A DNA stretch of 64,000 nt from Cecembia sp. (GTDB lineage: Bacteria; Bacteroidota; Bacteroidia; Cytophagales; Cyclobacteriaceae). The notes beneath the pieces are model-generated. The model was not told the origin of the DNA. It searched no databases and saw nothing but the letters and a program-made list of their open reading frames with translations. The position numbers and the translations under genes were made by a program. Each line of letters opens with the position of its first letter. Position 1 is the first letter of the stretch. The stretch covers positions 1 to 64,000 of the forward strand of contig NZ_SLAP01000166.1 in assembly GCF_007126775.1 (NCBI RefSeq), read 5' to 3'. Below, in pieces: positions 12,922 to 63,869 of the stretch.

Positions 12922-14703
12922 ATGGAAAAACATATTTATGACTCTGGGCTGATTGGTAACTGTTCTTATATTGCCCATGTTGAAAAGAACACGAATATCT
13001 CTTGGCTTTGCTTTCCGCGATTTGATTCAGATTTTATTTTTGGAGGGATGCTTGATAGGGAGAAAGGTGGTCAGTTTACCATTTTTCCGGAGGCAAAGGA
13101 CTTTGAATCCACTCAGGCCTATGTTGAAAACACCAATATCCTGGAAACATTCATCAGTGCTGAAGACTACAGCTATAAAGTCACTGATTTTGCCCCGCGG
13201 TTTAAGAATTATGACCGGTATTTCAAACCATTAATGCTGGTTAGGATAATCGAACCACTTACCGGAGCACCGAGAATAAAAATTTCCTGCAAACCTGTCA
13301 GGGAAAGAGGCAACAAAAACCTTGTCCCCAGTATTGGAAGCAACCATATTCGCTATATGGGAGAGGGGCAGGAAATCAGACTGTCTACCAATGCGGCCCT
13401 GAGTTATGTGGTGGAGGAAAAGTATTTTGTGCTTCAAAGGCCTATTTATCTCGTGTTCACTTATGGAAGACCTTTAGAAGCGCCAATTGAGTCAACCTGT
13501 GATCGGTTTCTTCGAGCCACTACAGAATATTGGCAATCTTGGGTCAAATCCACCAGTATTTCAACTTTTCATCAGCGCTTGGTTCTCAGGTCTGCACTGA
13601 TTTTAAAAATACATCAATATGAAGATACAGGAGCAATAATAGCAGCTTCCACGACTTCTCTTCCCGAATCACCGGGGTCTACCAGGAATTGGGACTATCG
13701 TTACTGTTGGATTAGAGATAGCTATTACACGCTAACTTCCTTCAACAGTATAGGGCACTTTGAAGAATTGGAAAAATATTTTGAGTTCATTCAAAATCTA
13801 CCCACAGGTGTGGGAGGCAGGTATCAGCCATTGTATTCTATTACTGGCGAAAGCCTGCTTATCGAGGAAATATTGCCTTTGGAAGGATATTTGGGAAATA
13901 AGCCTGTTCGATTCGGAAATCAGGCTTACACACATATTCAAAACGATTTATATGGACAGGTATTGGTTTCTTTATTGCCTTTGTATTCAGATCAGCGCTT
14001 TACATCGAAGGAACGCAGCTATTCAGAACCCATGATTATGAATCTTTTGGATAAGATCGAGCAAACAATGCATGAAAAAGATGCAGGACTGTGGGAGTTC
14101 AGAAATCTCGCACAGGAACATTGCTATACCTTCCTCTTTCATTGGGCAGGATCTCTGGCAGCTGCTAAAATTGGTAAACGCCTCAAGAATGATGAGATGT
14201 ACCAAAAGGCCATGTACCTCAAAGATGAGGCGGTCAAAAAAATAGAAGCCTGTTATCTTCCGGACAGAAAAGCTTATGCCCAGGCCATAGGAGTTAACCA
14301 TATGGATGCTTCGACTTTGCAATTGATTACTATGGGGTATTTTGGAGATGACGTTGAGCGTGCGAATAATCACCTCAAAGAATTGGAAAAGGAACTTTTA
14401 TCAAAAGGATATTTATTTTTCCGATACAAGCATATGGATGATTTTGGAGTTCCTGACACTACATTTTTGATTTGTGCCTTTTGGTATATCGAAGCCTTGG
14501 CTTGTGTCAACAGGCTGGAAGAGGCCGTAGAAGGTTTTGAGACCTTGATCAAATATGCTAACCATCTTAACCTCTTTTCGGAGGATGTAGACCAAAAAAC
14601 GGGAAGTCAGTGGGGCAATTTCCCTCAAGCCTATTCTCATGTAGGATTAATGAATGCTGCGTTTAGAATTGGGAAAAAACTCGACCGTCCCAACTTTCTT
14701 TAA
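12922..14703 (+). CDS. Glycoside hydrolase family 15 protein (glucoamylase/trehalase-like)
   Basis: GH15 enzymes release glucose from alpha-glucans or, in several bacteria, split trehalose. The 593-residue protein has the N-terminal beta-sandwich (IGNCSYIAHVEKNTNISWLCFPRFDS) and an (alpha/alpha)6 catalytic domain with the signature NWDYRYCWIRDS and the segment AGLWEFR that carries the likely general acid. No signal peptide is seen, so it is cytoplasmic. It faces the OtsA-OtsB fusion, which makes trehalose, so trehalose or a related alpha-glucan is a reasonable substrate guess, but the sequence alone does not decide it. Confidence 0.88.
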   Translation: MEKHIYDSGLIGNCSYIAHVEKNTNISWLCFPRFDSDFIFGGMLDREKGGQFTIFPEAKDFESTQAYVENTNILETFISAEDYSYKVTDFAPRFKNYDRYFKPLMLVRIIEPLTGAPRIKISCKPVRERGNKNLVPSIGSNHIRYMGEGQEIRLSTNAALSYVVEEKYFVLQRPIYLVFTYGRPLEAPIESTCDRFLRATTEYWQSWVKSTSISTFHQRLVLRSALILKIHQYEDTGAIIAASTTSLPESPGSTRNWDYRYCWIRDSYYTLTSFNSIGHFEELEKYFEFIQNLPTGVGGRYQPLYSITGESLLIEEILPLEGYLGNKPVRFGNQAYTHIQNDLYGQVLVSLLPLYSDQRFTSKERSYSEPMIMNLLDKIEQTMHEKDAGLWEFRNLAQEHCYTFLFHWAGSLAAAKIGKRLKNDEMYQKAMYLKDEAVKKIEACYLPDRKAYAQAIGVNHMDASTLQLITMGYFGDDVERANNHLKELEKELLSKGYLFFRYKHMDDFGVPDTTFLICAFWYIEALACVNRLEEAVEGFETLIKYANHLNLFSEDVDQKTGSQWGNFPQAYSHVGLMNAAFRIGKKLDRPNFL

Positions 14704-14707
14704 AAAT

Positions 14708-14898
14708 GAGGCTGTCTCATAAGTGAAAATTCCAAAATTTTATTTGGGGCTAGATTTAACTAATCTTCACGTCTTTGTTCTTTTGTAGCATTTTTGGACA
14801 ATTTTAGGCACAAAGATTCTGAGTCACAAAAAGCCTAATTGTAAAAGAGATGCTTTATTTGGAAATTAAATTTGGAAGACGATTTATGAGACAGCCTC
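14708..14898. repeat. 191-bp element with 15-bp terminal inverted repeats (MITE-like)
   Basis: GAGGCTGTCTCATAA at 14708-14722 is repeated exactly in inverted form at 14884-14898. The roughly 160 nt between have no ORF and no internal pairing that I can see. The element fills the whole gap between two convergent genes, starting 4 nt after one stop codon and ending 3 nt before the other. No clear target duplication flanks it. The end sequence resembles termini of some insertion sequences and also the stems of terminators in this genome, so it may be a non-autonomous mobile element or a long-range bidirectional terminator. Confidence 0.6.
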
Positions 14899-14901
14899 TT
14901 C

Positions 14902-17076
14902 TTACTCCATCAGTTTTTTAAGTAATTCCCGAACTTCTCGGAAGGATTTTATATTGTAATTGGCTTGTGTAAATGCGTACCCTACCCTGATAGAATAGGC
15001 ACTTTTTGGCATGGCCTTGAATGTATCCTCGTCTGTCCAATCATCTCCGATAGCCAATACGAAGTCATATTCATTGCCTTTCATCATTGCTACTGCGGCC
15101 CTCCCTTTGTTGATATCAGGCCTTTTTATTTCCAGTACCATGTTTCCTTCCAAAACCTGCAGGTTATGACCTCGGGCCATGTATTTAAGGTGGGAGAAGA
15201 GCTCCCGCATTCTGAGATCTCCCAAACCTGTTTGCACCTTTCTATAGTGCCATACTAGGGAGTGGTGTTTTTCCTCGATAAATGCGCCAGGAGTCCTTAG
15301 TACATAATACTCCATGATTTCCCTGATATCACTTTTCCAACTATCATCCACTTCAGCGTATAGTTGCCACCCATCTTTGGAAGCTTTCCGCTTAACCCAA
15401 ACCCCATGCTCGGCTATCATATCAATTGATTGCCCCTTAAACCATTTGCCCAATGTATCCTTGTCTCTACCTGAAATGATAACCACTTGGGCTTTTGTAC
15501 TTAATCCTTTTATAATGGATTTTAACTCAGCATCGGGCAATGCTTCTTCTGGGTTGGCTTTGAAACCGGTAAGGGTACCATCGTAATCCAAGAAAAGCAC
15601 AGGATTTTTGGCGGACTTGAATTTTTGTTCCATCTCACGGACCACCTTGTTGTCAATCTCTTTTGATATCAGTTCAGCCTGCTTGTTCTTGACATGGTCC
15701 AACCGATCGGTAAAAACCTTTACCCATTGAAAAATGTCATACTTCTTGAGGTTGTATTGCATGGATACCATCCTTGCTTTCTGCTCTTCCGGCTTCATGG
15801 TCAATGATTGGTAAATCGCATCCATCACTGACTTTTGATCATTGGGGTTGACTAAAACTGCTTCCTGCAGTTCTTTGGAGGCACCTGCCATTTCCGAAAG
15901 GATCAATACGCCGGATTGGTCAGTTTTACTTGCCACATACTCTTTACAAACCAAATTCATCCCGTCCCGCAGTGGAGTCACCAAGGCGATATCCGACATG
16001 CTATAGAAAGCACTCAATTCATCAAAAGGAAAGCCTCTATAAAAATAATGTATCGGAACCCAATTAAGGGTTGAATATTCTGCATTTACCCTACCTACTA
16101 ATAAATCAATTTCCTCCCTCAATTCTTTATAAGATTGTACTTTATCCCTGCTGGGGACGACAATCATGATCATTGATATTTTCCCGTGCAATTCCTTATG
16201 GTTTTTCAAAAGCTCATGAAAAACGTGAATCCTCTGAGGAATACCTTTGGAATAATCTAATCTATCTATGGTCAGGATCAATTTAGAATCGCCAACTTGG
16301 GTTCTAAATTTTTTGACAATATTTTGGGTTTTTCTACTTTTTGCCTGTTTCTCAAATTTCCCGTAGTCAATACCCATTGGAAAGGAATCCACATTGATTA
16401 TCCTATTCTCTGCTTGAATATAGCCACTCTCCGAGGACAGGCCAGTTATCCTACCTACGGCACTCAGAAAGTGCCGCATATCATCATAAGTGTGAAATCC
16501 AATCAAGTCAGAACCACAGATCCCCTCTAGTAATTCTTTCCTCCAAGGGATCATTCGGATTATCTCATAGGAGGGAAAAGGAATATGTTGAAAAAATGCG
16601 ATCGTAGCATTGGGTAGTTCGTCCCTCAGTAATTTGGGTAATAGCAGAAGTTGGTAGTCATGTACCCAAATGGTATCATCTGGATCTGCTTTTTTTAGAA
16701 TGGCTTCACAAAATAATTGATTTACCCGCTTATAGGCTTCCCAATGCTTAGCATTATAAACCATGTATTGCGTGAAATAATGGAATGCTGGCCACAAGGT
16801 TTCATTACTGAAGCCTTCATAAAACTCTTCCACGTCTTTTTTTGTAAGAAAAACGGGAGCCATTTTCAATTCATGCAATTCTAAGATAATTTCTGCCCGT
16901 TGTTCCGGATCTTCAACGGTGTTTCCAGGCCAACCAATCCAAATATTCTCGCCGGATTTATAAATGGATCCAAGCCCGGTAGCCAATCCGCCTGCTGAGG
17001 GTTTAAATTCAAATCGGCCATTTCTATGTCTTAATGAAATCGGAAGTCTGTTAGAAACAATGATGGTTTTTGCCAT
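14902..17076 (-). CDS. Bifunctional trehalose-6-phosphate synthase/phosphatase (OtsA-OtsB fusion)
   Basis: The 724-residue protein fuses the two enzymes of the OtsAB trehalose pathway. Residues 1-470 are a GT20 synthase (N-terminal SNRLPISL, then GGLATGLG, HDYQLLLLP and the DGMNLVCKEYVA segment) that joins UDP-glucose to glucose-6-phosphate. Residues about 490-724 are a HAD-type phosphatase with LDYDGTLTGF and the late motif GDDWTDEDTF. The fusion supplies trehalose, a compatible solute and stress protectant, in the cytoplasm. It is convergent with the GH15 gene, suggesting synthesis and breakdown side by side. Confidence 0.94.
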   Translation of the reverse strand: MAKTIIVSNRLPISLRHRNGRFEFKPSAGGLATGLGSIYKSGENIWIGWPGNTVEDPEQRAEIILELHELKMAPVFLTKKDVEEFYEGFSNETLWPAFHYFTQYMVYNAKHWEAYKRVNQLFCEAILKKADPDDTIWVHDYQLLLLPKLLRDELPNATIAFFQHIPFPSYEIIRMIPWRKELLEGICGSDLIGFHTYDDMRHFLSAVGRITGLSSESGYIQAENRIINVDSFPMGIDYGKFEKQAKSRKTQNIVKKFRTQVGDSKLILTIDRLDYSKGIPQRIHVFHELLKNHKELHGKISMIMIVVPSRDKVQSYKELREEIDLLVGRVNAEYSTLNWVPIHYFYRGFPFDELSAFYSMSDIALVTPLRDGMNLVCKEYVASKTDQSGVLILSEMAGASKELQEAVLVNPNDQKSVMDAIYQSLTMKPEEQKARMVSMQYNLKKYDIFQWVKVFTDRLDHVKNKQAELISKEIDNKVVREMEQKFKSAKNPVLFLDYDGTLTGFKANPEEALPDAELKSIIKGLSTKAQVVIISGRDKDTLGKWFKGQSIDMIAEHGVWVKRKASKDGWQLYAEVDDSWKSDIREIMEYYVLRTPGAFIEEKHHSLVWHYRKVQTGLGDLRMRELFSHLKYMARGHNLQVLEGNMVLEIKRPDINKGRAAVAMMKGNEYDFVLAIGDDWTDEDTFKAMPKSAYSIRVGYAFTQANYNIKSFREVRELLKKLME

Positions 17077-63591: not shown

Positions 63592-63869
63592 TGAGGGGAA
63601 TAGGTAAAAGGAGAACCGACTGTAAAGAAATCAGCCCCTTGGCTGCCCCTGATAGCTACCGGGGTAGGGGGGCAGATTGAAGGGAGGGAATAAGAGCCAA
63701 GGAAAAAGATAAAAGAGGGATGTCGAGAAAGAGGCTGGATAATAGGCCAAAAGAAAGCCCTGATTTGTTGTTTGAAATTTGATTTAGGTTTTTCCCAAAT
63801 AAAAAAGAGGCCGTCCCAATTGATGAGACAGCCTCAATTTATTATATCTTGGTACAATCCCTCTAGACA
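63592..63869. repeat. Intergenic region with nested palindrome
   Basis: CTGCCCC (63643-63649) and GGGGCAG (63669-63675) enclose CTACC (63656-63660) and GGTAG (63663-63667), a two-tier hairpin. The remainder is purine-rich and shows no gene. Confidence 0.45.
63807..63835 (-). terminator. Intrinsic terminator of dnaN
   Basis: On the minus strand GAGGCTGTCTCA, ATCAAT loop, TGGGACGGCCTC (with two G-U pairs) is followed by TTTTTTATTT. It starts 34 nt after the dnaN stop. The left arm shares its first 12 bases with the ends of the 14.7-14.9 kb element. Confidence 0.8.

Follow-up and report, generated by a model that had tools for sequence, protein, structure and literature searches.

The closest described relatives of the element analysed here are two staphylococcal transposons, IS1272 and TnSha1, which are reported to target DNA secondary structures (Furi et al., 2016; PMC4923244). 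As set out there, a stem-loop is deleted, the ends are blunt and no target duplication arises, and several of the targets are confirmed terminators. The IS1272 mode was termed inverted-repeat-replacing transposition (Wan et al., 2017; PMC5678879), and both papers assign IS1272 to the IS1182 family. A large survey lists IS1182 among the families over-represented between convergent genes (PMC9208149). The replacing mode is not universal in the family, as another study tabulates a Paracoccus IS1182 member with an apparent 4-bp duplication (PMC3281130). The sites described below resemble those of IS1272 and TnSha1 in having a hairpin target, a removed stem-loop and no target duplication; absence of primary-sequence specificity and inverted ends of ~16 bp are likenesses as well. 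The staphylococcal elements differ in being an autonomous IS (IS1272) and a 3-kb transposon (TnSha1), whereas ours is a 190-bp non-coding MITE of Bacteroidota, and in that the MITE's own ends may restore a terminator. Compared with bacterial MITEs in general, it is likewise short, non-coding, multicopy and bounded by terminal inverted repeats; unlike them, it has no target duplication at the sites read and appears to replace terminators.

In the window (the whole stretch of Cecembia sp. DNA that was analysed, 64,000 nt), the element lies between two convergent genes, with the following features.

14708-14898, strand not assigned: MITE with IS1182-type ends, non-coding, 191 bp (from sequence reading, repeats, copies, alignment and tree).
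14708-14722, plus strand: left terminal inverted repeat, GAGGCTGTCTCATAA; the IS1182-family IS at locus L067 has the identical sequence at its ends.
14884-14898, minus strand: right terminal inverted repeat, a perfect match to the left repeat.
14704-14707, plus strand: residual left flank AAAT, reading TAAAAAT with the stop codon, the same string as in the Cecembia lonarensis empty site.
14899-14901, plus strand: what is left of the right flank, TTC, preceding the stop codon of OtsAB (sequence read).
12922-14703, plus strand: GH15 family protein with trehalase-like N-terminus, left convergent neighbour (ORF and protein family search).
14902-17076, minus strand: OtsAB, bifunctional trehalose-6-phosphate synthase/phosphatase, right convergent neighbour (ORF and protein family search).
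63807-63835, strand not assigned: 29-nt hairpin with a stem nearly as in the MITE (GAGGCCGTCCCA / TGAGACAGCCTC), an A run before it and an AT-rich tract at the other side.

An earlier note on this DNA had described a 191-bp element with perfect 15-bp terminal inverted repeats between the GH15 and OtsAB genes, and direct reading agrees: the exact reverse complement of GAGGCTGTCTCATAA at 14884-14898 encloses, with 14708-14722, 191 nt. Its statement that the element starts within a few nucleotides of both stop codons also holds, since the last base of the GH15 ORF is 14703 and the minus-strand stop of OtsAB occupies 14902-14904, giving spacings of 4 nt and 3 nt. A repeat search lengthened the terminal repeat to 20 nt at 90% match (14703-14722 / 14884-14903). 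By arithmetic for this composition, 64 kb should contain about 0.03 inverted repeats that match perfectly over 15 bp and have arms less than ~250 bp apart. Family search backed both neighbours (Glyco_hydro_15 plus a trehalase-like N-terminus for the GH15 gene, and likewise OtsAB), a search for tandem repeats found none, and 191 bp leave no room for a transposase gene.

The same gap is empty of the MITE in a sister species. In C. lonarensis, OtsAB is 95% and GH15 93% identical to the window proteins and the genes are convergent across a 45-nt gap, which contains TGCCATCAGA-AAGGAAAAA-TCTGATGGCA, a simple hairpin with T/A tracts on either side. In the rows listed, the genome of this locus (G234) has coordinates identical to those of G001, a genome of the same genus as the window, and we therefore take G001 to be C. 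lonarensis. The window reads TAAAAAT, MITE, TTC, stop, with the hairpin gone, against TGATAAAAATATTTGCCATCAGA...TCTGATGGCATTTTTA and stop in C. lonarensis; the right flank TTC matches the T-rich tract of C. lonarensis inexactly. The earlier claim that the element exactly fills a convergent gap stands, but its reason was missed, as the terminator hairpin was apparently replaced rather than the gap entered. An OtsAB search of named genomes returned 80 loci, and scanning these (793 kb) recovered one other paired-end element (L113). In several Algoriphagus species the gap downstream of OtsAB is filled by other repeats of the GAAATACGCTTCGC type (L089, L098, L100, L115), so this gap collects repeats.

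Counting GH15–OtsAB, six between-species comparisons of filled and empty sites were read, and in each the hairpin was lost in the filled state and the MITE lay between A- and T-rich flanks, with no target duplication seen and the original hairpin retained at none of the six. (Names of pfkA, amylase, pyrE, rfbB, clpX, DUF3050 and threonine dehydratase come from reading translations rather than family searches.) Between pfkA and the amylase gene the states are reversed: C. lonarensis is filled, with TAAAA[MITE]TTTTAATC (in a longer read ...CATAAAA, MITE, TTTTAATCTTC), and the window's own genome is empty, with TAAAAAAGGAGGCAAAGTGCCTCCTTTTTTAATC (longer read ...CGTAAAAAAGGAGGCAAAGTGCCTCCTTTTTTAATCTTC); seven other genomes (G152, G076, G134, G021, G066, G123, G002) have hairpins there that look terminator-like by eye. 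The MITE sits between pyrE and rfbB in G152, where the congener G076 has the hairpin AAAAGGAAGCCGGATT...AATCCGACTTCCTTTT. At clpX, a MITE in G066 corresponds to a CCGCAG...CTGCGG hairpin in G002, though the downstream gene is possibly not the same. Between a DUF3050-like gene and threonine dehydratase, G066 has the MITE and G062, G022, G021 and G134 have hairpins. The own-genome copy on contig C202 follows the same DUF3050-like gene, with a right flank of just 10 nt before the contig end, where C. lonarensis has CTCCCGC...GCGGGAG. The copies after this gene in the own genome and in G066 are 67% identical and belong to different starred clades of the tree described below, so the end of the DUF3050-like gene was probably hit twice. 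An empty counterpart was also sought for copy L228, whose neighbours were not syntenic in the sole congener searched. The filled and empty sites match the IS1272 mode in every respect that sequence can show.

The explanation that we favour, and hold to be quite probable, is that an IS1182-type MITE takes the place of a terminator hairpin and probably serves as terminator for both neighbouring genes. The element would be a non-autonomous relative of the IS1182 family that moves by inverted-repeat replacement. A transposase, presumably supplied in trans, would recognise a hairpin in the DNA, in this case the terminator lying between a convergent gene pair; in the likely order of steps, it would excise the hairpin near its base and the MITE would be joined in its place without duplicating the target. 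What would remain of the old terminator is its A-rich and T-rich tracts, now flanking the MITE. Its terminal repeats could form a stem directly beside these tracts, and the product would therefore again be a hairpin with a T-rich tract, on both strands, with probable termination of both genes.

Among the alternatives, the one that fares best, and still an unlikely one, is that an ordinary MITE inserted in or beside a terminator and the redundant native hairpin was then lost neutrally. The window site leaves some space for such a course, as it shows 5-7% protein divergence from the sister, enough to allow later deletions, and later drift is not fully separable from replacement there. The shortening of the gap at filled sites is also statistically weak: residual gaps at filled convergent sites, summed by hand from the context listing, were shorter at p 0.05 for 39 copies and at 0.19 within G066. 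Against this account stands the repetition of the same outcome at six sites, among them pfkA–amylase and pyrE–rfbB, where the comparison is clean, with the hairpin kept at none of the six, and the flanks of individual copies point the same way. The 6 nt on the left are 70% A and those on the right 73% T, and within one copy the left flank pairs with the right at 4.60 of 8 positions, compared with 4.20 of 8 for random pairing (3 of 5000 shuffles). Being complementary beyond A/T tracts alone, the flanks fit the arms of a former hairpin, as replacement of the terminator would leave them.

The earlier note had proposed a MITE-like element, and several copies, the empty sister site, near-identical copies elsewhere and ISs with the same ends all support this. 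The own genome (G000; 3.8 Mb in 254 contigs, 91.7% complete) contains three full-length copies, at the window site, at C202:20118-20312 (74% identity to the window copy) and at C166:3789-3970 (recovered with a relative's copy as query); the other full-length copies are 60-75% identical to that of the window. A 78-nt element on C181 has ends related to the MITE. Homologues of the window copy occurred in 7 of the 59 genomes searched, the own genome counted, and the G066 copy as query matched 31 of 196, in many of the 31 by its internal part only. The 15-mer end, with at most one mismatch, was present in 42 of 98 genomes, whereas a reversed control pattern mostly gave 0 and at most 2 per genome and strand. 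Copies of 99.5% identity occupy separate loci in G066 (190/191) and G134 (189/190), evidence that the family moved recently. In a tree built from 51 copies, the window copy clusters with the C202 copy and with copies of G002 and G123 (a starred set of nine rows), apart from the copies of the congener G001. The window element is a member of a ~190-bp MITE family of Cyclobacteriaceae, and the GH15–OtsAB site does not show the pattern of a single copy held at the same place in distant relatives. The middle of the MITE (approximately 14769-14850 in the window) is a dispersed near-palindromic repeat, CTTTGTG...GGC...GCC...CACAAAG, which occurs alone in many Cyclobacteriaceae (partial matches in G010, G073, G117, G227 and others), so the MITE may combine IS ends with a different repeat. 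Other MITE-like families have the same ends and unrelated interiors (L070, L071, L074 and L257-L266, in G003 and G010), of ~189 bp in G010 and 265-354 bp in G003. At L031:877-1221 (G022), a 345-nt copy apparently has another inverted repeat (AACCCTTCAAGGGTT...) nested within it.

An autonomous partner in the same genome is usual for an active MITE, though not strictly defining. Intact IS1182-family ISs with the same ends, which the earlier note had proposed looking for, were found in related genera. In G003, G063 and G070, the end pairs lie 1.7-1.8 kb apart around transposase ORFs of 512-515 aa, and the three transposases tested scored 436-471 bits against NF033551, the model for IS1182 family transposases in NCBIfam (cut-off 270). 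Matches above this cut-off occurred in 5 of 12 genomes searched (G003, G014, G021, G022, G070), with nine transposase copies of nearly equal score in G014 and five copies in G070. The IS at L067 is identical to the MITE end at 15 of 15 positions at both termini, and L068, L069 and the copies read in G014 and G070 have termini GAGGCTGTCTCAAAA or close variants, so that the terminal sequence of these ISs is that of the MITE. Several of their copies also have A-rich and T-rich flanks, as the MITE does. The ISs differ from it in having a transposase of ~510-515 aa, and beyond the ends no common internal sequence was seen by inspection. Searches with NF033551 gave 0 matches in the own assembly (91.7% complete) and 0 each in G001 and G002; the MITE has the ends of IS1182-family ISs, but the putative source of its transposase is absent from its own assembly. 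In G021, a transposase frame with three internal TAA stops (L170) and further fragments on C13 represent a decayed autonomous element, and the same genome has a copy near-identical to the G134 copies.

The copies, which come from best matches and paired pattern matches rather than a full census, are biased in position. With a simple ORF-based gene call (minimum ORF 90 aa), both neighbours could be called for 60 of 63 copies, the other three being dropped, and these were convergent at 39, tandem at 20 and divergent at 1. The baseline of 317 adjacent pairs, from 20 stretches totalling 400 kb of the single genome G066, was 48 convergent, 48 divergent and 221 tandem pairs, which gives a binomial p of 3e-18 for the excess of convergent sites and 6e-4 for the shortage of divergent ones. 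The one divergent assignment, that of L229, depends on a crude choice of ORF. Minimum ORF length alters few calls (32 of 52 convergent at 70 aa, 39 of 60 at 90 aa), and the 70-aa count contained a few spurious end pairs (391, 348 and 207 nt) that are absent from the 90-aa count. The context set includes one locus without an end pair (L384) and the ten with the same ends and other internal sequences (L257-L266). Among the 20 tandem copies, 15 are closer to the upstream stop, 4 closer to the downstream gene and 1 tied, as counted from the listing. The absence of all 63 copies from called genes, with only 1 of 60 between divergent genes, would also be expected if the MITE inserted anywhere and selection alone left survivors at gene ends; this account leaves the loss of the native hairpin and the complementarity of the flanks unexplained, and we regard it as very improbable.

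The earlier note had further suggested that the element provides termination for both genes, which folding makes plausible and to which covariation lends no support. The element folds far better than shuffled sequences (z -5.3 on the plus and -5.5 on the minus strand; 0 of 200 shuffles as good), its ends forming a stem of ~17 pairs that adjoins T-rich tracts and encloses a long loop; in the window copy the T tract is poor on both sides. A simple terminator scan of the window gap called no standard short-loop or other terminator-like hairpin. With a strong stem, no other such hairpin in the gap and replaced hairpins that resemble terminators, the MITE probably terminates both the GH15 and OtsAB transcripts in the cell. 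In an alignment of 47 of the 51 tree copies (four excluded by hand), the terminal stem is paired in 90% of cells, with no covariation beyond shuffles (paired cells reached by 46 of 500, double-change pairs by 84 of 500), and covariation was dropped as support for a terminator. Conservation of the ends may accordingly reflect transposase binding only. The RNAalifold consensus retains a 7-pair stem only, at -0.8 kcal/mol, and an Rfam search with the element gave no match, on which ground an RNA family was ruled out. That the element is not mobile at all, and is instead a terminator grown large or an RNA gene passed down at the site, would suit its strong folding and convergent position and is scarcely credible given copies at unrelated loci, pairs that are nearly identical yet lie at different loci, IS ends, no Rfam match or covariation and, already contradicting it, the empty sister site and the other filled and empty sites. 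The hairpin at 63807-63835 is possibly a collapsed or deleted remnant of a related element, or an independent terminator. Short hairpins with the stem of the MITE were also considered as native terminators that could receive it and are not common, exact paired 12-mers 0-30 nt apart occurring in 1 of 16 genomes.

The inverted-repeat-replacing mode itself is known already, from staphylococci. A search of the open literature (subscription journals and ISfinder being outside its scope) found no earlier reports of such MITEs, and as far as that search reaches, it is new that a non-autonomous element acts in this way, that it does so in this phylum and that its copies are placed at terminators across the family. 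A comparison of naturally occupied and unoccupied sites here lets replacement be traced in a phylum remote from the staphylococci, for a non-autonomous element whose targets are native terminators. Tentatively, and with slightly more doubt than confidence, we suggest that the family acts as a mobile terminator, destroying a terminator hairpin and at one stroke forming a new one from its terminal repeats. If so, insertion between convergent genes would cost the host little, and a non-autonomous element would have a niche strategy for spreading to terminators throughout an entire bacterial family. Two testable questions are raised: by what means a DDE transposase locates a hairpin and takes it out, and whether the ends of transposons evolve as substitutes for a host signal that they remove. 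For Cyclobacteriaceae genomes, the finding is also a warning that terminators can be mobile DNA.
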